IMG/VR virus record: IMGVR_UViG_3300005842_000027
Span: 1-40,771 of that record
Length of the DNA: 40,771 nucleotides
From: a virus
Direction: 5' to 3' (one strand)
The notes beneath the pieces were generated by a model that saw only the letters and a program-made list of their open reading frames with translations, did no database searches and was not told the DNA's origin. A program made the position numbers and the translations under genes. The number at the start of each line of letters is the position of its first letter. The stretch's first letter is position 1. Positions 4,212-33,039 of the stretch are shown here, piece after piece.

Positions 4212-4480
4212 GAGAACCGCCTTTGACGCGTCTGCTCCCGCCCTTTGTCGGTCAGCCACCAGCAACTTTTGCCGAGCAGCGCCATCGCATCCGGAACGCC
4301 CGCCTCGATATCCTTCACCAGCCGGTCGCGTTCAGCGCGTTGATAGTAAGGCCCCTTCTCGACGAAGCCGCCGAGACACAACGCGAGCAGGTCCGGCGTG
4401 TCCGCGCAGGTGAGCAGGCGGCCGGGCGCGGCTTCATTGTTCAACGCCTGGCAGAGCAGGTTGTGTTGAGTGTTCGTCAT
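4208..4480 (-). CDS. hypothetical protein
   Basis: 90 residues, mostly helical by composition, with a C-terminal WWLTDKGREQTRQRR segment that resembles the last helix and wing of small winged-helix proteins; this is only a resemblance. Overlaps both neighbours by 4 bases (ATGA), so it belongs to the same translationally coupled early operon. No known family assigned. Confidence 0.65.
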   Translation of the reverse strand: MTNTQHNLLCQALNNEAAPGRLLTCADTPDLLALCLGGFVEKGPYYQRAERDRLVKDIEAGVPDAMALLGKSCWWLTDKGREQTRQRRFS

Positions 4481-5318: not shown

Positions 5319-6029
5319 CTACGAGGTGACCATTGTCGCCCGGAGCCGTCCGGGTGAGAGTTGTCGAATTCGCATTGCAGCCTGGCGCGTGGTCAGTCGC
5401 TCGGTACGCGTCGGCCGAGCCCGCGGCGGTAGCATCTTCTCGCGCTGTTTCAACATTTCTTTGACGAACGCGTTCACGCAGATCTCGAGCTGGGCAATGA
5501 ACACTTCGTCGCGCTCAACAGTCAGCATTACTGCCGGCATCTCCGGGTGATAGGAGACCCAGGTCCATTCCTTCGCGCCCGTGATCCACATCTGCCCCTG
5601 AACCTGTGCGATGTGAGCGGTAGGAATCTCGCCCCGATCGGTGTAACGCTGGTGAACCTTTGGTGACGGGCATTTGATTTCACCGCCCGATTCGTCCGCG
5701 AGAAACAATCCATCCGGTGAGCAACCGACCAGCCGACGCTCGTCTTTGTAAACGAACCCAACCCTCACGGCTTCGCGGCCGGTTTTCAATGCGTAATAGG
5801 CCAACGCTTCAGGCTCGAGATAGGCGCCGCGCTCCATCCAGTAACTGACGAAGCCGCGCTCGGCCTGCCCGGTGAACCACTCGCGCACCAGTTGAAGCAT
5901 GTACTTGGCGGCCTGCTTCGATAGCTCACCCTTCGACGTCACGATCTTTGAGAAGCTGGAGGCTGTGGGAATGCCGAGCCGCGCTTTATGCCAAGCCTCG
6001 GAGCGCTGTTCGCAATTTACGATAATCAC
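5319..6029 (-). CDS. YqaJ/lambda-type exonuclease
   Basis: 236 residues. Motifs of the lambda exonuclease (YqaJ) nuclease fold are clear: QRSEAWHKARLGIPTAS at 8-24, ERGAYLEPEA around 66-75, GCSPDGL with Asp at about 106, GEIKCPS with Glu 117 and Lys 119, and a following AHIAQVQGQMWITG helix. These give the D-ExK metal centre of a 5'-3' dsDNA exonuclease. It should process DNA ends for single-strand annealing during replication or repair. The C-terminal 50 residues are basic and probably bind DNA. ATGA overlap with the upstream gene. No separate annealase of the Bet/RecT/Erf type was recognised. Confidence 0.88.
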   Translation of the reverse strand: MIIVNCEQRSEAWHKARLGIPTASSFSKIVTSKGELSKQAAKYMLQLVREWFTGQAERGFVSYWMERGAYLEPEALAYYALKTGREAVRVGFVYKDERRLVGCSPDGLFLADESGGEIKCPSPKVHQRYTDRGEIPTAHIAQVQGQMWITGAKEWTWVSYHPEMPAVMLTVERDEVFIAQLEICVNAFVKEMLKQREKMLPPRARPTRTERLTTRQAAMRIRQLSPGRLRATMVTS

Positions 6030-7021: not shown

Positions 7022-7034
7022 GCGTATTAGTTTG
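7005..7034. repeat. 17-bp-spaced operator repeats
   Basis: GCGTATTAGTTTG occurs at 7005-7017 and 7022-7034; a third related copy (TATTAGTTTGTCTA) is at 6772-6785, 236 bp away. The repeats overlap both the minus promoter 6993-7021 and the plus promoter 7015-7044. Confidence 0.75.
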
Positions 7035-7044
7035 GTGGTATGCT
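7015..7044 (+). promoter_or_regulatory. possible promoter of the XerD-like gene
   Basis: TTGTCT at 7015-7020, 18-base spacer, TATGCT at 7039-7044. It overlaps the operator repeats and faces away from the HTH promoter, so the two would compete or be co-regulated. Confidence 0.45.
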
Positions 7045-7082
7045 CTGCGCCCGCGAAAGGGAACACATGGAGGGACACAATC

Positions 7083-7961
7083 ATGGTAGATATCGAAAAG
7101 AACTTCTTGAACTATCTACGAGTCGAGAGGGGTCTGTCTTCGAATACTCTCACGGGCTATGCCCTCGACTTGAAGAAACTCCGCGACTACGCCGACGGCA
7201 TCGGAAAGGATCTACCGGCCCTCGAGCAGGCCGACCTACAGCATTTTATCCAGGTGCTCGGCGTCTCCGGCCTGAACCCAAGGACCGTAAACAGAGCGCT
7301 TGCCGTGGTCCGAAATCTATACAGGTTTCTCCAACTGGACGGTCAGTTGAAACGTGACCCGAGCGTAAACATTGGAAGCCTGCAAACGGACCAGCCGCTC
7401 CCGAAATTTCTGGCAACCGAAGAAGTTGAAATGCTGCTTTGTGCTCCCGACACCTCGACGGAGATTGGAGTGCGCGACAGGGTAATGCTCGAGGTTCTTT
7501 ATGCTACCGGGCTGCGGGTTTCAGAGTTGGTATCTTTGAAAGTTAGCGACTTGAACGTTGATGCCGGCTTTCTTACGACGGTCGGGAAGGGGTCGAAGGA
7601 GCGATCAGTTCCGATAGGGAAGAGCGCGGTGACATGGGTGGATCACTACATGGGAGCGCGGCGCGTGTTGCTGAACGGTAAGAGCAGCCGTCTGTTGTTC
7701 GTCGGCGCGGATGGGGCGCCGCTCACCAGGCAGGGATTTTGGAAGCTGATCGTGGCCTATGGCGAGAAGGCCAAAATCGGACACATCACGCCTCACATAC
7801 TCAGACACAGCTTTGCTACTCATCTCCTCGCAAACGGCGCGGACCTTCGATCGGTTCAGATGATGCTTGGACATGCCAGTATCGGCACGACGCAGATTTA
7901 TGCCCACGTGACCAACGAAAAACTATTCCAGGACTATAAGAAATTCCACCCGCGCGCCTGA
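7083..7961 (+). CDS. XerC/XerD-type tyrosine recombinase
   Basis: 292 residues from ATG 7083 (GGAGGG 8 bases upstream; the frame is open a little further upstream but that start is weaker). N-terminal SAM-like domain, then the catalytic domain with Arg 145 (ATGLRVSEL), the beta-hairpin Lys (GKGSKER, about 169-172), His 238 and Arg 241 (HILRHSFATHL), His 264 (LGHASIG) and nucleophile Tyr 273 (QIYAHV). The C-terminus YKKFHPRA is typical of chromosomal XerD. It may have been captured from a host, and could integrate the phage at a dif site or resolve multimers. A conventional phage integrase lies 432 bases away, convergent to it. Confidence 0.92.
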   Translation: MVDIEKNFLNYLRVERGLSSNTLTGYALDLKKLRDYADGIGKDLPALEQADLQHFIQVLGVSGLNPRTVNRALAVVRNLYRFLQLDGQLKRDPSVNIGSLQTDQPLPKFLATEEVEMLLCAPDTSTEIGVRDRVMLEVLYATGLRVSELVSLKVSDLNVDAGFLTTVGKGSKERSVPIGKSAVTWVDHYMGARRVLLNGKSSRLLFVGADGAPLTRQGFWKLIVAYGEKAKIGHITPHILRHSFATHLLANGADLRSVQMMLGHASIGTTQIYAHVTNEKLFQDYKKFHPRA

Positions 7962-8392: not shown

Positions 8393-9829
8393 TTATGTTT
8401 TGCGTGGAGTGCTTTCTATAGCTTCGTTTGTGTCCAAATTGGACTCGGATGGGTCGCGCTTTGCGAGGCCCGCCATCGCTTTCGCGAGTGACTTTGCCGT
8501 TGCGTGCGAGTAAACACGAAGCGTGGTTGCCGGGTTCTTGTGGCCGGCGATCGCCATCACGGTTGCCAGGTCCGCTCCGTTCTGAAGAAGCCTGGTGATT
8601 ACCGTATGCCGGCAGTCATGAAACACGAGGCCGCCGGCTGTGTCGCGGCCGTACGGGATGTCTCGAGCCCGGCATGCTTCTCCGAGTATCCGATCGACGA
8701 TCGTAATGCGAGAGTCGATCGTCCCTCCACAATCGAAGATCCAATCTGACTTCGATCGACACTGCGCCAGAATCCGCGCCGACTCCGCATTCAGCGGAAT
8801 GGTTCGATCGTCGCCGCCCTTGATGCCTCGAGCAACCAGCCATCCCCATTCGTAGCCGGGCGCCCGTCCGAGATGCACGTCGCGCTTCTTGAGGTTGATC
8901 AACTCACGGCAACGCATGCCGGTTTGCAACGCCATCTCAAAAACGTCGGCGATGACTTCCCTCGTGCGCCCGCCGTCCGTGCGCTTCGTCGGGTTCGATC
9001 GAAGTTCTGCAAGTATCGCGGCTTCCTCTTCTCGAGTGATAAGGCGGTTGCGATGCCGGCCCGTTGATCGCGCGCCTTCCGGCTGCTTCGGTGGGCGCCA
9101 CCCGGCCAGGTCCGGCATGTTCTCGGCGGCGTAAACCAGCGCGTATCGGATCAGCACCAGGTTGTTTCGAATCGTCGGCGGTGAGGCTTTCTCCCGCGCG
9201 CGACTGCGGACCAGCTCTGCCAGGTCTGAGGTCTGCAGCTCCTTAACCGGACGCGAAAGGGCCACAACTTTTGCAAGCAACTCAAAGCTGTACTCATTCG
9301 AGCGGATGTATGGCTTGGACCGCCCGCGGCTTCGAAGTGTCCGGAGCCAGAGGTCGCGCACCTGGGCGATCGTCACCCGGGATTCGTCGGCTGGAAACTT
9401 GTAGACGCCGCGGCGCTGGTCGGTTCGCAGTGAATCGATCGCGTCCTGGCATTCCTTGATCGTTGGAAAGTAGAGGCCTCGAGGAGTCCGGACGCGCCGG
9501 CCGTCGAGTCGGATGTCATAGACGTAGTACCAACCAGGCTGGGGCCGCTCGCGCCAGGCTTTGTAGATGCCGGCGCGGATCTTCTTTCGCGCGGGCTTGT
9601 CGGTCATCTGCCCTTTCCCGCTGCCTTGGTCAATCCACCGGTCCCTGGCTTGTCCTTGTCGATTTAACAACCCATCGGCCTGGTAACAACTTATGCCTCG
9701 CCAGAGCAGCAGGGTTACTACTTTACTGAGCGAGCGTTTTTCGATTTCGCCAATTTCATTGAGGACGGCGCGCAGGCTGTCCGCCATTCGAAAGGTAAAA
9801 TTTGACTCAGGCTCTTTTTCTTGGGCCAT
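8393..9829 (-). CDS. int: phage tyrosine integrase with N-terminal RHH-like extension
   Basis: 478 residues from ATG 9829. Residues 11-50 (NFTFRMADSL..., RSLSKVVTLLLWRGI) resemble a ribbon-helix-helix DNA-binding domain. A second good start, ATG 9607 (residue 75, AAAGGG upstream), gives a 404-residue standard integrase. The catalytic domain carries Arg 306 (TGMRCRELI), Lys 337, His 404/Arg 407 (HDCRH), His 430 (AGHKNPATT) and Tyr 440 (RVYSHAT). It should integrate and excise the prophage. The upstream region is divergent with an RHH gene. Either a true fusion or two in-frame products. Confidence 0.9.
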   Translation of the reverse strand: MAQEKEPESNFTFRMADSLRAVLNEIGEIEKRSLSKVVTLLLWRGISCYQADGLLNRQGQARDRWIDQGSGKGQMTDKPARKKIRAGIYKAWRERPQPGWYYVYDIRLDGRRVRTPRGLYFPTIKECQDAIDSLRTDQRRGVYKFPADESRVTIAQVRDLWLRTLRSRGRSKPYIRSNEYSFELLAKVVALSRPVKELQTSDLAELVRSRAREKASPPTIRNNLVLIRYALVYAAENMPDLAGWRPPKQPEGARSTGRHRNRLITREEEAAILAELRSNPTKRTDGGRTREVIADVFEMALQTGMRCRELINLKKRDVHLGRAPGYEWGWLVARGIKGGDDRTIPLNAESARILAQCRSKSDWIFDCGGTIDSRITIVDRILGEACRARDIPYGRDTAGGLVFHDCRHTVITRLLQNGADLATVMAIAGHKNPATTLRVYSHATAKSLAKAMAGLAKRDPSESNLDTNEAIESTPRKT

Positions 9830-15983: not shown

Positions 15984-16281
15984 AATTTGTTCCCGCCTGC
16001 TCGATCTTCGCTCCCAGCGCCGCCACGTTGCGATTACCCTGCTCGACTGCAGCAACCAGCGCCTGAGCCTTCATCGCCTCCTCACGCGCGGCCAGTTCAC
16101 TGGCGTGTGCGACTCCCAGCTGCTGCTGGTACTGATCGACGATGCGCGCGTTGTCGGCTTTCAGGGACGTGAGTTTTGCGGCGTGATACTTGCCCGCGCC
16201 CCAGAGGGACACGAAGAGAACGCAGAGGATCCCGGCGGCAATCCACGCGCGGCGCGGTGTGATGAGTTCTGGGATAGTCAT
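15871..16281 (-). CDS. i-spanin (Rz)-like protein
   Basis: 136 residues from ATG 16281 (ATGA overlap with the methyltransferase stop). N-terminal membrane anchor (AWIAAGILCVLFVSLWGAG at about 11-29), then a coiled coil (KADNARIVDQYQQQLGVAH...), and a Cys-rich C-terminus CATPDDCLRRLCLELRAAG as in Rz-like proteins. Expected to span the periplasm and fuse membranes at lysis of a Gram-negative-type host. Confidence 0.68.
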   Translation of the reverse strand: MTIPELITPRRAWIAAGILCVLFVSLWGAGKYHAAKLTSLKADNARIVDQYQQQLGVAHASELAAREEAMKAQALVAAVEQGNRNVAALGAKIEQAGTNYEQAKSDLGDCATPDDCLRRLCLELRAAGFAKAVCPE

Positions 16282-16832
16282 GCTGCCCTCGCTCGTGCGA
16301 TCTTCAGGCGCACGTCGGATCTGACCTCGTTGCCCCACACATGCCAGCCGGGCCGCGATTGCCGTGCGAATAGTTCAAGCCGTCGCTCGTCTGAAATGCT
16401 TTCAATCAATTCGTAACTGCCGGGCGGCTTGCGCGAATGATTGCCGGGCGTGTTCTGCGGCCAGTGGTAGACATTGGGAACGTATCGCGCCGCGTTGAAT
16501 TGACACTTACCCTTGTAGCCGAACAGCAGATGCTCAGTCCGGTGGATGAAGTAGTTGCCGATTCCCGATTGCTTCACCCATGTTATCGGAGCGAGAAACT
16601 TAAAGCCCCATGCGTCTATCACGTCGAAGCCGTCGCGCAGGAATCTGTTCGTCACCCACAGCCACAGATGGCAGCCGGTTTCAGCGAGCTCGCCAACCGG
16701 CATGGCTTTGATCTGATCCACGGTGAGTGTCGGATAGGGCAACGAGGTCGGTCTGTGCTGCTTGGTTTTCAGATACGCGTTGCTCATCTGCTGCGGCCAC
16801 GGCGGGTCAGCCAGAATGGTTCGGTAGATCAC
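16278..16832 (-). CDS. MT-A70 family DNA adenine methyltransferase
   Basis: 184 residues. ADPPW at 8-12 is the catalytic DPPW motif of MT-A70-type N6-adenine methyltransferases; GCHLWLWVTNRFL, the AWGFKFLAPITWVK segment and HLLFGYKG complete the family pattern. It likely methylates phage DNA and protects it from host restriction. Unusual place: inside the lysis block, coupled by ATGA to the holin-like gene above and the spanin-like gene below, so expression would be late. Confidence 0.88.
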   Translation of the reverse strand: MIYRTILADPPWPQQMSNAYLKTKQHRPTSLPYPTLTVDQIKAMPVGELAETGCHLWLWVTNRFLRDGFDVIDAWGFKFLAPITWVKQSGIGNYFIHRTEHLLFGYKGKCQFNAARYVPNVYHWPQNTPGNHSRKPPGSYELIESISDERRLELFARQSRPGWHVWGNEVRSDVRLKIARARAA

Positions 16833-22767: not shown

Positions 22768-23061
22768 ATGGAAACTTCAAGTAACTTCGATCGAGCCGCG
22801 GCGAGCAAGGCGCGAATGGCGCAGCCGGCCAGAGTACAAACAACGAACTATCCCGGATCTAAGGTGAAAGATGCGTTGCGAATGATCGGCATTCTTGCTG
22901 CCGTGTGCAGCGCACTGGTTGGGGTGGGATTCGCAAACGGCCCGATGCCGGTGCTGGGACTCGGCGCGTTCGTGTCCGGCCTGGTTGTCTGCGCGTTAAT
23001 GTTCGCCTTGGCCGCGATCGTCGAGAACTTAATTGCAATTCGGCAGAACACCGAGCACTAA
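22768..23061 (+). CDS. two-span membrane protein, plus-strand moron
   Basis: 97 residues from ATG 22768; an in-frame GTG at 22714 gives 18 more residues and sits near a weak TAAAGC -10 box. Two membrane helices (MIGILAAVCSALVGVGFANG and LGLGAFVSGLVVCALMFALA) with a short loop. Encoded against the late operon, between distal tail and tape measure genes, ending in a 4-base overlap with the tape measure stop. No Shine-Dalgarno. Candidates: superinfection exclusion or another lysogen-expressed membrane function. Confidence 0.65.
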   Translation: METSSNFDRAAASKARMAQPARVQTTNYPGSKVKDALRMIGILAAVCSALVGVGFANGPMPVLGLGAFVSGLVVCALMFALAAIVENLIAIRQNTEH

Positions 23062-25226
23062 TACCAGGGCGTGAGCGCCTGGCTGGTCCCGAACTGCGTC
23101 GGAGTTTTGCCCATATCATCAACGCTGGCAGCGAGCGCGCCGCGGCTGTCATCTTTGAGCGTGATTTCTACAAGGCTCTGGCTGTCCAGCTTTTTCAGCA
23201 GCGCCTCAATCAGCTGGTTCAAATTCTGAGTCTCTTTAATCTGCTCTTGCCGCTGTTGCTCAAGTGACTTCGCTTCATCCATCTTCGACTGCACGACCCG
23301 GTTCCGCATCTCCGGATCCATCTGATCCGCCCGCAGGCCCCCGGTAATAGACAAGAACTGACTTCGCTGTATCGCCTGCTCAGCCGCGCTGCCTGAACCT
23401 TTCAGCGCATCAAGCGCCGTAAGCTGCGTCTTCGCGGCTTCGACTGCCGGGTCGACAAACGGATTGCGCCGGATCGCATCCAGCGCGTTGGCCCGCTTCT
23501 CGCCGAGTCCCGAAGCCCAGAGCTGGTCACCAGACAGCCCGCTTGTGAGCTGTTCTATTTTCTGCGCGGCCTCAGCGTATGGCAGCATCGCAAACTGAAC
23601 CGCCTTGATCTGATCCGCGATTACCGCGATGGGGTCGGAGTCGATGCCCGAGCGCAGCGCGTTCGATTCGGCCAGCATCCCGACGTTTGCGACAGCGCGA
23701 TCGGCGGCGCGGCCTTCGAAGCTTCGGTCACCTGAAAGCGCCAAGGCGGACGCCCTGAGTCCGGCAACCTGAACGGCGTTCGATGCCTCGAGTCCGAACT
23801 TCTTCAGGTTGAATGCGTCCTGCTGCGTTTCCAGGAGTCGCTTGCGTAGATCGGTCGTGAAACCCACTGACGCCTTTTGCAGCGCGTCCTGAGCCAGCCT
23901 TCCCTCTGCGTAGAGGGTCACGAATGGATTGTCGGCGTGCACGTCGGCGTTCAGCTTCGCGAGCATTGCGATCTGATCGGCGAGCGGCGATTCAGGGCCG
24001 TGATTAAGTTTGAATGAGCCGCCCCCCATGAGTTGGACGTGTGAGGCAGCGGCTACACGATCCGTTTCTATCATGGCGGCTGCCAGTTCCTTCATCTTCG
24101 CGGCAAACTTAGTCACGGCGTCCTGCTCTGTTTTATAGTCGGCTTGCCTCTTGAGGAACTCTGCGTGCGTCTTCTCGCCGGCGGCTTCAATGTCCGCTCG
24201 CCCGAAGTCAATGATCGCGCCAGGATTCACGACAGCAAGGCCAACCTTCAATACAGCTGAGACTGCCGCCGGCACATGCCACTCGTTCAGAGCCGTTCCG
24301 ATCTTGAACACTAACTTCACCAACTCGCCGGCCTCGGAAACGGCGGTCGTGAACATCTGCGACAGGTCGCTTTTCGGATCGCCAAGCTCGGCGGTGAGCC
24401 GGGTTATGAATTGCACAGCAGCCTGTAGGCCTTCGTTGAACTGTTTGTTGGAGATGATGGACTCACCGACCGCCTGCATGAATTTCGTCTGAGCAGCTTC
24501 GGCTGCGGTCATCGCGCCGGCGAAGGTTCCGGTCAGCTTCGCGGCGTTACCGACCTGCGGCGCGGACTCGGCAATCAGCCCGTTGAGCAACGCTTGCCTG
24601 GCGGCCTGGCCCTTTGTCTTATCTGAGAGATCCTGCAGGTTGAACCCATAGTCGCCGAGAATCTTATCGAGGTTCTTCGTGATGCCCACATTGTCCACGA
24701 GCATGGAATTCTGATTCTTGATTCCCTCAGTTGCCCCCACGATCGCCTCGCCGAAGCCAAGTGACGCCTGCCGATTGAATGCCGACGCGTCCCCAAACCG
24801 CTGCAGGATCGTGACTGCTTGATCCAGACCGAAGCCGGCGGACAGAAGATTCTGAAGACCCTTGCTCGCGTCGCCGACACTGAGCAGCCCGCTTTTAACA
24901 ATCGCAAGGTTGTTCACCGCGTCCTGTGCGGCCTGGTTCCCTATACCCTTGAACGTAGCAACCGAGGCCAGCGCTATTTGCGCCGCCTTCAGCTTGTTGA
25001 TCTCGGAGACTGCGCCGGTGCCGAACGCGATCGCGGCGTGCAGCCCCTGCTGAAAATACTGCGCGATCAGCGTGCCCTTGAACACAGCAAATGCCGAATC
25101 CAGCGCGCCGCCGGTCTGCTTCGAGGTCGAGCCGATCTTGTTAAGATCCTGGTCGATCTGACGAAGGACGGCCCGGCCCTCACCGTTTGGGTCGATTTTG
25201 AATGTTACTTCTACTGAGTTAGGCAT
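23058..25226 (-). CDS. tail tape measure protein
   Basis: 722 residues. Long helical protein with Ala/Gln-rich repeats, a central hydrophobic part and the typical start (VEVTFKIDPNGEGRAVLRQIDQDLNKIG). Segments such as GLQNLLSAGFGLDQAVTILQRFGDASAF are usual in phage tape measures. By the common rule of about 0.15 nm per residue it predicts a tail near 110 nm. No lytic transglycosylase or peptidase motif was seen. Preceded by the frameshifted chaperone pair. Confidence 0.85.
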   Translation of the reverse strand: MPNSVEVTFKIDPNGEGRAVLRQIDQDLNKIGSTSKQTGGALDSAFAVFKGTLIAQYFQQGLHAAIAFGTGAVSEINKLKAAQIALASVATFKGIGNQAAQDAVNNLAIVKSGLLSVGDASKGLQNLLSAGFGLDQAVTILQRFGDASAFNRQASLGFGEAIVGATEGIKNQNSMLVDNVGITKNLDKILGDYGFNLQDLSDKTKGQAARQALLNGLIAESAPQVGNAAKLTGTFAGAMTAAEAAQTKFMQAVGESIISNKQFNEGLQAAVQFITRLTAELGDPKSDLSQMFTTAVSEAGELVKLVFKIGTALNEWHVPAAVSAVLKVGLAVVNPGAIIDFGRADIEAAGEKTHAEFLKRQADYKTEQDAVTKFAAKMKELAAAMIETDRVAAASHVQLMGGGSFKLNHGPESPLADQIAMLAKLNADVHADNPFVTLYAEGRLAQDALQKASVGFTTDLRKRLLETQQDAFNLKKFGLEASNAVQVAGLRASALALSGDRSFEGRAADRAVANVGMLAESNALRSGIDSDPIAVIADQIKAVQFAMLPYAEAAQKIEQLTSGLSGDQLWASGLGEKRANALDAIRRNPFVDPAVEAAKTQLTALDALKGSGSAAEQAIQRSQFLSITGGLRADQMDPEMRNRVVQSKMDEAKSLEQQRQEQIKETQNLNQLIEALLKKLDSQSLVEITLKDDSRGALAASVDDMGKTPTQFGTSQALTPWY

Positions 25227-25602
25227 TGCTTCTCATGCGCTCAAGCCGGTCTGCGAGGTTGCGTTCTTGTTGGAGGACCTCGACCAGGCGGGAAAAGGTG
25301 AGATCCATATCGGGGTCGATTCGATCGGGATTGGCGGACTGCGCGTTACTGACAACGGCGACCAGGTCGCGCATCTTCACGAAGTCATAACCATCGGGCC
25401 ACTTGCCTAAGACGCGTTTGACTTCCTGTTCCGTGTTGGCGTGGAAGATCGGAGCCTGTTCGCTGAGCTCGCATTTAGGACAGCCGGCATTCCAGTCCTT
25501 TTCAACTCGCCGGCAACTGCCGCCACCTGGCCCACAGTCCCACGCCGGCCACATCGAGCGGACCTTGGTTGCGTAGCCGAGCCAGAATTTACAAACGATC
25601 CT
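25219..25602 (-). CDS. tail assembly chaperone, frameshifted C-terminal part (GT-like)
   Basis: The frame is open for 127 codons from 25602 to the stop at 25219, but its first ATG is only at 25554 (111 residues). The stretch before that ATG reads as plausible protein (FRIVCKFWLGYATKVRS). It would be joined to the upstream chaperone by a +1 shift at TTT TAG G (25606-25600). Cys-rich (DCGPGGGSC, CPKC), then helical. Overlaps the tape measure start by 8 bases. A separate ATG-started gene is the alternative. Confidence 0.6.
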   Translation of the reverse strand, partial: RIVCKFWLGYATKVRSMWPAWDCGPGGGSCRRVEKDWNAGCPKCELSEQAPIFHANTEQEVKRVLGKWPDGYDFVKMRDLVAVVSNAQSANPDRIDPDMDLTFSRLVEVLQQERNLADRLERMRSNA

Positions 25603-26083
25603 AAAACAGTCGATAACGAAAGGTAGGCAGAACTATTCGGTAGTACCGCTCCTTGCAGTTCTCGGCCATGTCGAGCAGCTCGAGGCGCGCCGGGTCGAGG
25701 AAGTAGTAACGCACTCGATCGGGAAGCGGCCGCTCGTCGGTTGGCGTGGCGTCGAAGATCTCTTTGTATGCGGGAATGGTTGCGAGCCGCTCCTGGATTG
25801 AGGCGCCCATCTCACCCGCAGCGATCGGATCGCCGAGCACCTTTGCCTTTTGCTCTTCGGTCAGCGGGAAGTCCGGAAATCCGGTAGGCGGCCAGACCAG
25901 CATGGCGGCTAACCAATCCACGCCGTTGGTGCCCACGTCGATAGCAGCGGCCTGATCCTGACTGTCTTTCTGTTTCCGGGTTGAGCGCTTGCAGGGGAAC
26001 GAGAACGGGTCAGGGCCGTAAAGCTCCTCGACAAAGTCCAGGGTGACGATGACGATCTGTGGTGCCGTCGACTTCGAAAACAT
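25601..26083 (-). CDS. tail assembly chaperone, N-terminal part (G-like)
   Basis: 160 residues. Contains QDQAAAIDVGTNGVDWLAAML, WPPTGFPDFPLTEEQKAKVLGDP and ends in YRIVLPTFRYRLF before TAG 25603-25601. By position (after tail tube genes, before tape measure) it is the lambda G counterpart; residue-level similarity is weak. The last sense codon TTT before TAG re-pairs perfectly after a +1 slip, so a fusion of about 287 residues is predicted. Confidence 0.6.
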   Translation of the reverse strand: MFSKSTAPQIVIVTLDFVEELYGPDPFSFPCKRSTRKQKDSQDQAAAIDVGTNGVDWLAAMLVWPPTGFPDFPLTEEQKAKVLGDPIAAGEMGASIQERLATIPAYKEIFDATPTDERPLPDRVRYYFLDPARLELLDMAENCKERYYRIVLPTFRYRLF

Positions 26084-26095
26084 TCACCCTCCTCT

Positions 26096-26488
26096 TTAGA
26101 CTGTAGCGTCGACGAGCTGCTTGATCTTCAGCACCGCCGCATCAGTAGCCGAGAAGTTCTTAACCCACAGCCCAGTCGTATCGGTCGAGCCGAATGGATT
26201 GGTAAGCCCGCTGAGGTTGTTCCACTCCCACGGCTGATTAGCCAGCAGCACGATTGTCTTTGCAGGTGAGCCGCCCGAGGCCGCGTTCTGGTACACGGTG
26301 ACGTTCTTATCGGAAATCATGAAAAAGCTCTTGAGCTGCGAAACGTCGGTGACTATCGAGATCGCCACTTCCGTTGAAATCGGAACCGGGATTGTGCGCG
26401 TGTCCGCCCCGTCGGCAGTAATGACGACCGCGCGCCCGATTGTCTCGGCGCCGTCGTTGCAGGTTTTCGTAATCGAATGAGTTGGCAT
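26096..26488 (-). CDS. virion-associated hypothetical protein
   Basis: 130 residues, beta-rich with Thr/Ser/Asn (TIGRAVVITADGADTRTIPVP; NVTVYQNAASGG), as in small structural or decoration proteins. Lies between tail tube and chaperone genes, so a tail or decoration role is plausible. A heptad DNA repeat separates it from the tube gene. Confidence 0.55.
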   Translation of the reverse strand: MPTHSITKTCNDGAETIGRAVVITADGADTRTIPVPISTEVAISIVTDVSQLKSFFMISDKNVTVYQNAASGGSPAKTIVLLANQPWEWNNLSGLTNPFGSTDTTGLWVKNFSATDAAVLKIKQLVDATV

Positions 26489-26510: not shown

Positions 26511-26538
26511 GTGGTCAGTAGTCAGTGGTCAGTAGTTA
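26511..26538. repeat. four 7-bp tandem repeats
   Basis: GTGGTCA, GTAGTCA, GTGGTCA and GTAGTTA follow each other at 26511-26538. The last one contains the tail-tube stop codon (complement of TTA). Simple heptads like this occur between genes in some bacterial genomes. Confidence 0.65.
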
Positions 26539-27510
26539 GGTTGTCAGCAAGCCGCTCAAAGGCATTGCGGCGCCGACTGGCGTAGGCTGAAGACTGAGAG
26601 CCAGGCACGAGCGCGGCGCTTCCCCGACGAATTCCTGCTCTTTCTTGTTTGCTCTCAGAATCGCTTCAGTGGCGGTGAAGGTGACGTTCTCTTCAGCCGG
26701 ACCCACGCGCCACACGACTTCGACTTTCTCGCGTGGGTTGGCGTGCGCCTGAACCGATAGCGCGCCCCCTGGATAGTCCTCGACGAGCCAGTCGAAGCTG
26801 TTCTCGACGACGTCGTGCCGTTCCGCCCGGGTCATGTCGATCGAAGCCGCCTGCCATGCGTCGTCCTGTACCAGGTTCTTGTTCGAGTATTTGAGCCCGA
26901 ACTTCTGGGTCGTGGTGCCCAGGTCCTCGTTGGCCTGCATTCGGTCCACGCCGTCGATCGAGAGCGCACATTGATAGCTGTAGATCGGGATCAGTTCCGT
27001 GCACGCCGGCAGTTCCGTCAGGCCGGCCGCTTCGAGGTCGGCTGGTCCTACCAGGTCCGCGGTGACCTTAACGCGCTGTTTACCGTCCTGGTTCACTGTG
27101 AAGCCTCGAACGGTGAAGGTGAACAAGCGCCCGGTATCGCCCGCCTGGTTTTTGAACATCATGCAGCCGGTATAGAAGTCCGGCTGGAATTCGCCCGTGT
27201 CGAGCATCTCCAGGTTATTACCCGCGCGCGCGCCCATCGCCGCGCCGGCAAAGCCCGCGAGGAGCTCGGCATCGCAGTCGAACTCGACGGGCAGCTCCAG
27301 CTTGCGCTTGAGCACCACAACGTCGGTGACCATTTGCTGCGTACAATCCATCACCTCATCTTCCGTCTCGTCGATTTCCACGTTTGCGCGCGTGGTCATT
27401 TGCACGACGCGAGTGAGCGACGCGGCGGAGTTCTTGGTCGCGATGTCAGCCTGGGGCGTCCAGTCTGGGTCTATCAGAAAGTAAAGTTGCGAGCCGCGTG
27501 GTGCGATCAT
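26536..27510 (-). CDS. major tail tube protein
   Basis: 324 residues, beta-rich, with an early IAPRGSQLYFLIDPDWTPQ and later FTFTVRGFTVNQDGKQRVKVTADLVGP strands, fitting a tube subunit with an additional C-terminal domain. AGGAG upstream of ATG 27510 gives a strong ribosome site, as expected for an abundant protein. Comes after the tail terminator in transcription order, which supports the call. No exact family named. Confidence 0.65.
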   Translation of the reverse strand: MIAPRGSQLYFLIDPDWTPQADIATKNSAASLTRVVQMTTRANVEIDETEDEVMDCTQQMVTDVVVLKRKLELPVEFDCDAELLAGFAGAAMGARAGNNLEMLDTGEFQPDFYTGCMMFKNQAGDTGRLFTFTVRGFTVNQDGKQRVKVTADLVGPADLEAAGLTELPACTELIPIYSYQCALSIDGVDRMQANEDLGTTTQKFGLKYSNKNLVQDDAWQAASIDMTRAERHDVVENSFDWLVEDYPGGALSVQAHANPREKVEVVWRVGPAEENVTFTATEAILRANKKEQEFVGEAPRSCLALSLQPTPVGAAMPLSGLLTT

Positions 27511-27545: not shown

Positions 27546-27551
27546 TGCGGG

Positions 27552-27767
27552 GTGAAGTGTCCGAATTGTATTTGCTGGCAGAGCCGCGTACTGGATATGC
27601 GTCCGTCCGAATCCCGGAACAGACGACGGCGCGAGTGCCTCGGCTGCGGGCATCGCTTCACGACTTACGAGCGCCTGGCGATTGCTCCGCCTGACCTGGA
27701 GAATCGTGTCATCGAGGCGCTCGCGACTGCCGGCAACACGATCAAGAAAGCTCTAAACGAAAACTGA
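27552..27767 (+). CDS. NrdR-like zinc-ribbon protein without ATP-cone (moron)
   Basis: 71 residues from GTG 27552. CPNC at 3-6, SRVLDMRPSESRNRRRRECLGCGHRFTTYERLAI matches the N-terminal zinc ribbon of the ribonucleotide-reductase repressor NrdR almost feature by feature, but the ATP-cone that follows in NrdR (about 100 residues) is missing, replaced by ENRVIEALATAGNTIKKAL. It can bind DNA or interfere with host NrdR. Encoded against the late operon between tube and terminator genes, overlapping the latter's stop by 15 bases. Confidence 0.78.
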   Translation: MKCPNCICWQSRVLDMRPSESRNRRRRECLGCGHRFTTYERLAIAPPDLENRVIEALATAGNTIKKALNEN

Positions 27768-28250
27768 ATTCTCGACGTTGAGCTCGAATCGGCCGAAGTG
27801 AATCAAACTAGCATCCGAGCCCGTCCCGTCCAGACTCCCGATCGTCATGTCATCCGTCGACTGCAGCAGCAGGTGTCGCACCAGGTTCCCGAGCCCGAGA
27901 TCTCGCGTCACGCGCAGCACTGCAGCCAAATCTGAGATCGCGATCGCGTTTGCCGCTTCACTGGTAACGCCGTCGACGCTGCGTCGAAGGTATGGCTTGA
28001 AAGTCTCAATCTTAAAGCCGAGGGTCTGAATGTTCTCGCAGGCGTTTGATGTCTCAACTTCATTGAGACGCTGCAAACAAATGTTGACGCCATGGCAGAT
28101 CCGGCGCGGGTGCAGAGACTCCAGCACGGCTGCGATTTCCGGGTCATCCTCTGCGGTCCTGGAGTCGATCATCACGTAGCCGATGGTTTCGAGGCCGAGA
28201 GATTCGACGAGGGTTTTCAGCGCGGCTTTGATAGTTGCTTGGTCAGCCAC
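27753..28250 (-). CDS. tail terminator-like protein
   Basis: 165 residues, alpha/beta (TIKAALKTLVESLGLETIGY ... LRVTRDLGLGNLVRHLLLQS). Size and place immediately before the tail tube gene suit a tail terminator or tail completion protein that caps the tube. No diagnostic motif. Overlaps the upstream SprT-like stop by 8 bases. Confidence 0.55.
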   Translation of the reverse strand: MADQATIKAALKTLVESLGLETIGYVMIDSRTAEDDPEIAAVLESLHPRRICHGVNICLQRLNEVETSNACENIQTLGFKIETFKPYLRRSVDGVTSEAANAIAISDLAAVLRVTRDLGLGNLVRHLLLQSTDDMTIGSLDGTGSDASLIHFGRFELNVENSVFV

Positions 28251-28665
28251 GTTTCTTTTTTCGCTTCTTCAGATCGTCACGCAGCCAAATGAAGGCGTTG
28301 CAGAGCTGTGTGGTAACGCGTTCCTCATGCTCGATCGTCCATTCGTCGCGCATTTCATTAACGAAGACGTGGCAGAGTTCATGAACGAAGGCGTCTTCAA
28401 GCGCGGCGTCGGACTGGTCTACGATCGCCAGCATGTTCACGTTGATGGTCGCCGTCAGGTACTGCCAGCGAACGTTACAGGTCATCACCAGTTCGAAGTT
28501 TTCGGCCTCGTCTTCTGAGGTCGCCTTCAGCCCGGCGCGGTGATAACGGAGGTCGATCTTCCACGACCGATCCATCCCGAGCGCCGCGACCCATTTCTTT
28601 GACAGCCTTCGAACACGGCGGCGCTGCTTTTTGTATTCGGCGTCGGTCATGCTCGGTAACTTCAC
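28243..28665 (-). CDS. SprT-like zinc metallopeptidase
   Basis: 140 residues from GTG 28665 (an in-frame ATG lies five codons on). HELCH at 95-99 in a helix (EDAFVHELCHVFVNEM) is an HExxH zinc site; the downstream Glu/His of the helix EWTIEHEERVTTQL may be the third ligand. Small SprT/WSS1-like enzymes cleave DNA-bound proteins in cells; inside a virion-neck gene cluster it may act during head maturation or entry. Basic tail KKRKKKRG. GTGA overlap with its neighbour. Confidence 0.8.
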   Translation of the reverse strand: MKLPSMTDAEYKKQRRRVRRLSKKWVAALGMDRSWKIDLRYHRAGLKATSEDEAENFELVMTCNVRWQYLTATINVNMLAIVDQSDAALEDAFVHELCHVFVNEMRDEWTIEHEERVTTQLCNAFIWLRDDLKKRKKKRG

Positions 28666-31032: not shown

Positions 31033-33039
31033 TCAAGTGAACGTAGCCGCGCCGACCACTTCGCCGACCCATTGAGTAGCTGAAATCGCGGTGATGACGA
31101 GCTTCGAGCCAACCGCATCAAGCGTGACGTTGCCCGCCGCCGCCGTGACCGAAGTGCCGACTCGGATAGTCGTGGACGCGCCTGCTGTGATCGTCACAAC
31201 CTGATTTGCGTCTCTGTAGAATTCGTATGTGAGGTTCTTCACCGCAGTTGGCAGCACGAAGTTGACCCCGCCCGCAGCGCCCGTGTTGGTGAAGAGCGTG
31301 GACTTGTCGGCGGTGAGTACTGTGTAGTTCGAAGTCTTCGCGGTGACGACACGGCCAGCGAGCAGGGAGCCGAGAGTGCCAGCGGTGCCGGTAGTGGCTT
31401 CGATGACCCCAGCGGCGTTCCGAGAGAATGCCGTGTCGATTGCCGCAACGCCGGTGCCGCTGCCCCATCCGTAAGAATGCGTACTCGGTAATGCAACAAA
31501 CGTCGCGTTAAACCCAAAGGTGCTTACTCCATTATTTGTGGCGATTATTCTCTGATTAGATTCACCTGAGAATCCAATCCTCGTGCTTGCTAGTTCAAAT
31601 AACAACGAGGGGCTTGCCACGCTCCCGGTTGGCAGAACTAATGCACCCGTGCCCTTCGGCGTAATAGCGATGTGGATATTCGTCGCACTCCCCGCTGCCT
31701 GATGCGTTATCACCCCCGCCGTCTGTACCACGCTTTCATACTGCGTGGTGTTGCCGACGAACGAAGACGTAAACGGCAACGTCGCCGAGCCGAGATTGAT
31801 TGTCCCTGCCGCCACTGGGAGTAGAGAGGTGTTGATCGCGACTCCCGAAAGATTGTCTAGCGCTACTGTCGCGCCTGCCGCTGCCGGAGTCGCAAACTCA
31901 AGCGCGGTCGCTCCCGCATTCACCCTCACAACCTGAAGGGCGCTGCCGAGCGCTGAAAGGCCGGTACCGCCGTTTGCGATGGGCAGGATGCCTGACACAT
32001 CGGCGGTGAGTGAGATGGCGGTTGCCGCGTTGCGAGGAGTGAAGCCGAGCGCCGTTGTCACATCCCCGCTCGTGAGCACCACTGCCCCGGAGCGCGTGTT
32101 GAAAGTGTTGACGGTAGTGGCAGCCGCGTCTTTCGGAGTGAAGCCGAGCGCGGTTGTAACGTCACCGGAAGTCAGCGTCACAGTGCCGCTTCTCGTGTTG
32201 AAAGTGTTGACTGTCGCTGCGGACGCGTCACGCTTGAGCCCGAGCGCCGTGTTGAGATCCGTCTGAGTCGAGAGAGTCCCGGTGATGCCGCCCCAGACGC
32301 TGGGCCCTGCTGGTCCGGTCGGTCCCGTGGCACCGGTTGTTCCCTGAATGCCTTGAATGCCCTGTGAGCCTGTGGTTCCGGTGATTCCCTGAATTCCTTG
32401 GATACCGGGTTCGCCCTGCGGACCGGGCGTGAGTTCGATTCCGTCAATCTGATCCTGAATCGAGCTTGTTGCGTCCAGAAACGCGAGAGTCTCGGCTGAG
32501 ACTCCGGAGACCGACACAAAGCCTGTGATGGGATCTGACACCAGCACGAGGCCCGGTGTGAGACCCGTCGCGCCGCCGGGTATGGTGATTTGCGCGATGC
32601 CGCCGACTTCAACAACCGTGACTCCGGACCCCACGAAGTTCAGCGTGGAAATCAGATCAGCCAGCGCGACACCTTCATCCTTGATGGTCACGCCTTCGAT
32701 GGCCGGTTGGACCGACGCTGTGACCAGGTCCTCTAAGTTCGCGGTTGCGCTGTCGGGTACCTGAAGATCCGGATTCGCTCTGAAGTCGATCGAGCCCGCC
32801 GTCGCTTCAGCGAAAAGACGAATGGTTGAAAGCCGCGGCGCAAGAATCGTGATGTTCTTACCGGTAATCGGGTCCGGCTCGGTCGTCAGGAACTTGATGG
32901 CGACATCGCGCACAACCTGCCCGCTCTTGCGCGTGCGCTGCAGCGTGATGGCGATCCCGGCAGGCGCAAGTTGCCCTGCCCCGTCGTATAGAACGCCGGT
33001 GATAGTGCAGACCGGAAGTGTGAGGTCAGGAGTCGGCAT
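31033..33039 (-). CDS. tail fibre-like protein with collagen-like and 33-residue repeats
   Basis: 668 residues. An N-terminal beta domain (about 1-120), then a Gly-x-y collagen-like stretch (about 203-247: GPQGEPGIQGIQGITG...), two copies of a 33-residue unit (NTFNTRSG, LTSGDVTTALGFTP; nucleotide period 99 bp near 32036 and 32135), ANGGTGLSALG, and a long beta C-terminus. These are standard fibre elements. It lies between coat and neck genes, an unusual place for a host-recognition fibre, so a head or neck appendage (whisker/head fibre) is a good alternative. Confidence 0.78.
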   Translation of the reverse strand: MPTPDLTLPVCTITGVLYDGAGQLAPAGIAITLQRTRKSGQVVRDVAIKFLTTEPDPITGKNITILAPRLSTIRLFAEATAGSIDFRANPDLQVPDSATANLEDLVTASVQPAIEGVTIKDEGVALADLISTLNFVGSGVTVVEVGGIAQITIPGGATGLTPGLVLVSDPITGFVSVSGVSAETLAFLDATSSIQDQIDGIELTPGPQGEPGIQGIQGITGTTGSQGIQGIQGTTGATGPTGPAGPSVWGGITGTLSTQTDLNTALGLKRDASAATVNTFNTRSGTVTLTSGDVTTALGFTPKDAAATTVNTFNTRSGAVVLTSGDVTTALGFTPRNAATAISLTADVSGILPIANGGTGLSALGSALQVVRVNAGATALEFATPAAAGATVALDNLSGVAINTSLLPVAAGTINLGSATLPFTSSFVGNTTQYESVVQTAGVITHQAAGSATNIHIAITPKGTGALVLPTGSVASPSLLFELASTRIGFSGESNQRIIATNNGVSTFGFNATFVALPSTHSYGWGSGTGVAAIDTAFSRNAAGVIEATTGTAGTLGSLLAGRVVTAKTSNYTVLTADKSTLFTNTGAAGGVNFVLPTAVKNLTYEFYRDANQVVTITAGASTTIRVGTSVTAAAGNVTLDAVGSKLVITAISATQWVGEVVGAATFT

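Follow-up and report, generated by a model that had tools for sequence, protein, structure and literature searches.

Programmed frameshifts are well known in the tail chaperones of phages, where the ribosome usually slips one base back (-1) on a slippery heptamer. Can a gene of this kind also be extended by a slip in the opposite direction, at its own stop codon? The question is raised by a virus record of IMG/VR (IMGVR_UViG_3300005842_000027), of which we analysed all 40,771 nucleotides (hereafter the window). A first-pass annotation of this sequence had proposed that the tail chaperone gene ends in a +1 slip site, TTT TAG G, through which ribosomes would enter a second frame of 127 codons.

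Genomic context of the locus

The candidate frameshift locus lies directly upstream of the gene for the tape measure protein, and on its other flank a 130-aa gene is followed by that of a candidate major tail protein, so named by position (Table 1). The best phmmer match of the latter (E 0.77) is to a similarly placed gene of L085, one of the loci collected by the searches described below. The minus strand of the window carries a tailed-phage module with terminase, portal, scaffold, a P22-coat-like capsid protein and a head-tail adaptor, and the G+C content is about 55-62% per 2-kb block.

Several other genes of the window deserve mention in their own right. A collagen-repeat protein of 668 aa is encoded between the capsid and head-tail adaptor genes (31033-33039, minus strand), and the head-tail/tail region includes a 140-aa protein (28243-28665, minus) with a HELCH motif, metallopeptidase-like by eye and without Pfam match. 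Pfam identifies a factor of the sigma-70 family that comprises regions 1.2, 2, 3 and 4 (1940-2851, minus), a YqaJ recombinase (5319-6029, minus), an MT-A70 methyltransferase (16278-16832, minus) and two different phage integrase-family recombinases separated by about 430 bases (7032-7961, plus, and 8393-9829, minus).

Table 1. Features of the putative frameshift locus and of the adjacent genes, in window coordinates.
Feature	Position	Strand	Remarks
Tape measure protein	23058..25226	-	phrog_7078, E 1.2e-22; starts with an ATG that the last codons of the extension frame overlap
+1-frame extension, 127 sense codons	25219..25602	-	Proposed T-like domain, C-x6-C-x10-C-x2-C; WDCGPGGGSCRRVEKDWNAGCPKC
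Rival start ATG	25552..25554	-	Would start an independent 111-aa protein; sole SD-like element AAGG, 25566-25563
Segment from slip to first ATG	25555..25602	-	Coding-like; resembles the extension start of -1 frameshifted phage proteins; RIVCKFWLGYATKVRS
Proposed +1 slip site TTT TAG G	25600..25606	-	P-site TTT 25606-25604; stop TAG 25603-25601
Overlap where a +1 shift is possible	25601..25632	-	Bounded by +1-frame TAG 25635-25633 and 0-frame TAG 25603-25601
0-frame ORF, 160 aa	25601..26083	-	Putative short, G-like product of the chaperone gene; Shine-Dalgarno strong (AGAGGAGGGTGAATG)
Second possible +1 site in overlap, TTT CGT	25616..25621	-	Would re-pair to TTC; resembles influenza PA-X UCC_UUU_CGU
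130-aa gene just upstream	26096..26488	-	Probable tail/virion protein; without PHROG or Pfam match
324-aa gene	26536..27510	-	Candidate major tail protein by position

An open and coding-like second frame

Read on the minus strand, the 160-codon ORF ends in CTG TTT TAG G (25609-25600), exactly as the first-pass annotation had it, and a slip of one base forward at TTT makes AGG (25602-25600) the next codon. The bounds of the open overlap between the two frames and the 127 codons of the +1 frame also agree with the earlier description. Judged from the sequence, a recognised slip site is present in the overlap and the second frame has no start codon of its own there; its first ATG, GTG or TTG is the ATG at 25554, 16 codons past the slip. 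The start of the 160-aa ORF forms the strongest anti-Shine-Dalgarno duplex (-12.5) among the 20 starts computed.

The openness of the +1 frame is in itself no evidence, because the 26 open codons that precede this ATG have an estimated chance of about 0.4 at the base composition of the window. Codon usage agrees with the claim that the second frame is protein-like ahead of its own first ATG: in a model trained on the genes of the window, the stretch of 16 codons that begins with AGG and ends just before ATG 25554 has log-odds of 2.46 bits, a score reached by 79% of in-frame gene windows and by 1.3% and 1.0% of out-of-frame windows. TTT is a rare codon (50 of 6,039 in the 18 genes counted) and ends a single one of these 18 genes, namely the 160-codon ORF. 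The TTT of TTT_TAG is also the sole codon of the overlap that is identical, at all three bases, to its +1 codon.

The sole close relative that we found is the contig IMGVR_UViG_3300005617_000219, whose ungapped match to the window spans 13,929 bases and includes 12 mismatches; its seven bases at the slip site are identical. Since this second contig, representing a single close strain, has the same site, an indel error in one contig is unlikely. All 12 SNPs lie within 500 bases (27549-28050), a pattern like that of a recombination tract or a mixed assembly.

Homology searches with the two halves

Neither half matches PHROGs, Pfam or, by tblastn, phage records, and the joined fusion has no match among plasmid records. 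Searches of 398 and 369 genomes were empty, which is uninformative here, and when each half, the product of the 324-aa tail gene or the capsid protein was used as a single query, the scans found the near-identical contig alone. Alignments of the capsid and tape measure proteins yielded 80 viral-contig loci each, and that of the tape measure also 80 genome loci (all labelled L and a number); for neither half did these loci contain a convincing homologue, the best E values being 0.06 and 0.31. One phmmer match, in L115/L121, was rejected as a homologue, being a different gene by place. AlphaFold2 on the fusion alone gave a pLDDT of 35. The name of tail chaperone given to this gene by the first-pass annotation is favoured by position and architecture, but not by family searches, which match neither half.

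A group of Cys-rich extensions reached by -1 slips

The phrog_7078 tape measure domain is also present in Pseudomonas phage KT1, L118 and L125, and KT1 and L118 also match tape measure PHROGs. Several of the loci fetched with the tape measure have, just upstream of it, an N frame linked to a Cys-rich C frame by a -1 heptamer, which is TTTTTTC in L101, L118, L125 and L169, AAAAAAC in L170, AAAAAAA in L173 and AAAAAAG in L215. The heptamer AAAAAAC was also seen in L025 and L023, which came from the capsid scan. This heptamer scan sought -1 motifs only, so its matches are no evidence on direction. They are informative on the kind of gene: the N half of L173 matches phrog_313 ('tail assembly chaperone') and its C half phrog_23549 and phrog_680, while the N half of L025 matches the XkdN-like phrog_389, with Pfam Phage_TAC_5 below the cut-off. 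Therefore, frameshift-reached Cys-rich extensions at this position do belong to chaperones.

A scan of viral contigs with the peptides of five C frames, which selects by protein and not by direction, returned 11 loci. Nine of them are distinct (L101, L106, L118, L125, L169, L259, L260, L262 and L263); L265 and L266 were left out because their contigs are also those of L109 and L102, two loci with frames identical to L101. In all nine, the C frame lies at -1 to a long N frame, encodes a Cys-rich domain and is entered at the same boundary. The slip site is mostly CG_TTT_TTT_C, with CTTTTC in L106 and eight T in L260, and, where this was counted, the 0-frame product continues for another 40-52 residues past the slip. 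The loci are at positions 4321 (L101), 5196 (L118), 2824 (L125), 4885 (L169), about 4687 (L106), about 3001 (L259, L262 and L263) and about 2956 (L260). The joined protein reads ...RFF/RAAFWFW... (the slash marks the slip), followed in most members by C-x2-C...C, and the T domain is rich in cysteines and aromatic residues (FFRAAFWFW...CxxC...NCG...CPVSAIP). The tested members are without Pfam or PHROG family, L118 has no match in phage records, and this group of -1 frameshifted proteins at the chaperone position is apparently undescribed so far.

Resemblance to the -1 group at the proposed join

Joined at TTT_TAG, the window protein reads ...RYRLF/RIVCKFWLGYATKVRSMWPAWDCGPGGGSC...C-x2-C. Its YRLF/RIVCKFWLG matches PRFF/RAAFWFWRS of the uncultured phages, whose -1 slip on T_TTT_TTC falls at this same boundary, and a motif drawn up post hoc, R-[FL]-F/R with an aromatic stretch and clustered Cys, is present in the window. 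MAFFT put the joins of the window and of the group together without instruction, and PAWDC, further downstream, is common to the window and L262. We scored the match with the slip as anchor, taking 4 residues before it and 9 after. With the resemblance noticed before scoring and several column ranges scored, the value against five relatives was equalled by 1 of 57,035 six-frame 13-mers of the window and by 10 of 20,000 local shuffles; against three relatives fetched later, 13 of 57,035 six-frame 13-mers were as high, and for the nine post-slip columns alone, all of which precede ATG 25554, 83 of 63,368. Read in frame 0, the four residues that precede the join contribute 9.4 to the score; read in the +1 frame, they contribute 0.6. 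The match is therefore to a protein that changes frame at this point, which places the join at TTT_TAG.

Profile comparisons gave a different picture. HMMs built for the T domain (first from 9 relatives, later from 13) and for the N domain (from 9) failed to recover the window protein even with E allowed up to 1000, and the hhalign probabilities were 1.7 and 0.1. Because these tests were negative, we do not claim that it belongs to the Cys-rich family; the sequences suggest that the two have the same layout and a matching join.

Proposed mechanism and its support

We think it likely, with a probability of about 0.66, that the locus encodes a tail chaperone pair resembling lambda G/GT, produced from one start through a +1 slip at TTT_TAG. 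Most ribosomes would stop at UAG and yield the 160-aa protein. In a minority of cases, while UAG awaits release factor 1, the peptidyl-tRNA-Phe would move one base forward, from UUU to the UUU that overlaps it; AGG would then be read, followed by the rest of the 127 codons, giving a protein of 287 aa whose C-terminal domain is cysteine-rich. If G/GT is taken as the model, the shorter product would be expected to coat the tape measure and the longer one to recruit the tail tube protein. The slip, its rate and the chaperone role are what we infer from the sequence, the frames and their bounds, and a site carried by two strains.

This +1 slip, as the first-pass annotation had postulated it, is the best-supported explanation of the locus: the codon usage before the ATG, the match at the join and the literature on UUU before stops all favour it, and the accompanying chaperone label and parallels with RF2 and Listeria phage PSA are weaker. 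Regarding the literature, a passage of PMC10885494 on a randomised RF2-type site ranks CCC and UUU next to CUU as the most slippery codons before the stop, and pausing at a stop is named there as a route to forward shifts. Upstream of TTT_TAG there is no SD-like stimulator (anti-SD duplex +0.4), and downstream of it no unusual RNA structure (z 0.65); strong stimulation would presumably be unnecessary for a long product made at a small ratio to the short one. When +1 pairs were sought upstream of long ORFs across the loci, 185 were found, nearly all of them spurious overlaps by inspection. Three of these end in TTT and a stop (L044, L108 and the window), and the pair is chaperone-like in the window alone.

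Alternative explanations

The locus might instead hold two separate genes, with an independent 111-aa protein made from ATG 25554, by re-initiation or from a weak ribosome site of its own, and the preceding segment left untranslated. The AAGG 8 nt upstream of this ATG gives a duplex (-3.3) that is similar to the one at the start of the tape measure gene (-2.7) and exceeds those of several probable genes, and the 46-nt gap that leads to it is like the 47 nt that separate the 324-aa gene from the 130-aa gene. Yet, a Shine-Dalgarno of this quality is average, 44% of 451 minus-strand ATGs being as good, and two genes would leave unexplained both the coding-like character of the segment before the ATG and the presence in it of a part that matches frameshifted relatives. 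We therefore consider this arrangement unlikely. It is less probable still that the frames are joined by some other slip. A +1 shift at TTT_CGT would have the advantages that TTT_C re-pairs well and that ACC_UUU_CGU resembles the influenza PA-X site, as given in a section of PMC3498833, but it loses the four-residue match before the join (0.6 versus 9.4). A -2 slip at the place of TTT_TAG, as in Mu, reaches the same frame with a nearly equal or equal join score (18.4 versus 20.8; 13.3 versus 13.3); however, it puts tRNA-Phe on TGT, which is a middle-base mismatch, and the same section names Mu as the sole known natural case of -2.

The explanation to which we give least credence is that one extra T, caused by a sequencing error or a recent mutation, interrupts a gene that is truly, or was ancestrally, one continuous ORF. 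Removing one T does make the frames continuous, and no diverged homologue keeps the site. On the other hand, the T run is merely four bases long and is the same in the gapless second contig, from one close strain; coding character is kept in both frames (for the extension, at its start); and chaperones of this kind normally have a short form too.

Comparison with known frameshift systems

A pair joined at TTT_TAG would resemble lambda gpG/gpGT in its two frames, which overlap immediately ahead of the tape measure gene, and in having a short as well as a frameshift-extended product. The shift differs, being -1 on a heptamer in lambda and +1 at a stop in the window, and no chaperone family has a detectable sequence relation to the window protein. 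The Cys-rich group is alike in its phrog_7078 tape measure downstream (in L118 and L125), in the join R-F-F/R or R-L-F/R, in the aromatic stretch and in the clustered cysteines, whereas its shift is -1, mostly on T_TTT_TTC.

The first-pass annotation had likened the site to RF2 (prfB) and to Listeria phage PSA, and both comparisons are best taken as loose analogies. In RF2 the tRNA of the P site re-pairs onto UUU while a stop codon occupies the A site, and in the window such re-pairing, on UUU_U, would be perfect; but prfB, as treated in a part of PMC5009743, has CUU UGA C and a conserved SD stimulator, compared with UUU UAG G and no SD-like element here. PSA shares the +1 direction, the phage structural module and one site beside a stop codon; the same part of that source describes a proline codon, in capsid and tail-shaft genes, compared with a Phe codon upstream of the tape measure in the window. 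Other forward shifts have been proposed in related kinds of genes. For example, the tail chaperone of HSTV-2 is described as 'very likely +1' in an excerpt of PMC5009743, and 350 of the 2,718 positive cases of SEA-PHAGES are forward, the joined genes being mostly tail chaperones according to a passage of PMC10885494. The +1 sites of HSTV-2 and SEA-PHAGES are predictions, and are likened to the window by direction and kind of gene, not by sequence. Titles and abstracts of the open literature yielded no chaperone shift on UUU_UAG; as a negative, this is weak.

Implications for tail chaperone evolution

Overall, the two frames are probably joined by a slip, and +1 shifting at a stop codon would be a rarer form of the device for which most tailed phages use a backward slip. 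It is possible, although we hold it doubtful, that the window and the Cys-rich proteins form one group of chaperones with a cysteine-rich T domain in which the boundary of the frameshift stayed fixed as its direction changed, from -1 on T_TTT_TTC to +1 at the shifty stop TTT_TAG. If this were true, the ratio of the chaperones would be set by competition with release factor 1 and not by a heptamer, tying tail assembly to the capacity of the host to terminate at UAG. If this boundary can indeed carry a +1 shifty stop as well, selection would be seen to act on having the long and the short products, and not on the mechanism or direction by which they are obtained. UUU_UAG would also offer a simple site, without evident stimulator, that can be tested with reporters. 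Finally, the locus gives a reason to seek chaperone fusions that annotation has missed because it looks mainly for -1 heptamers.
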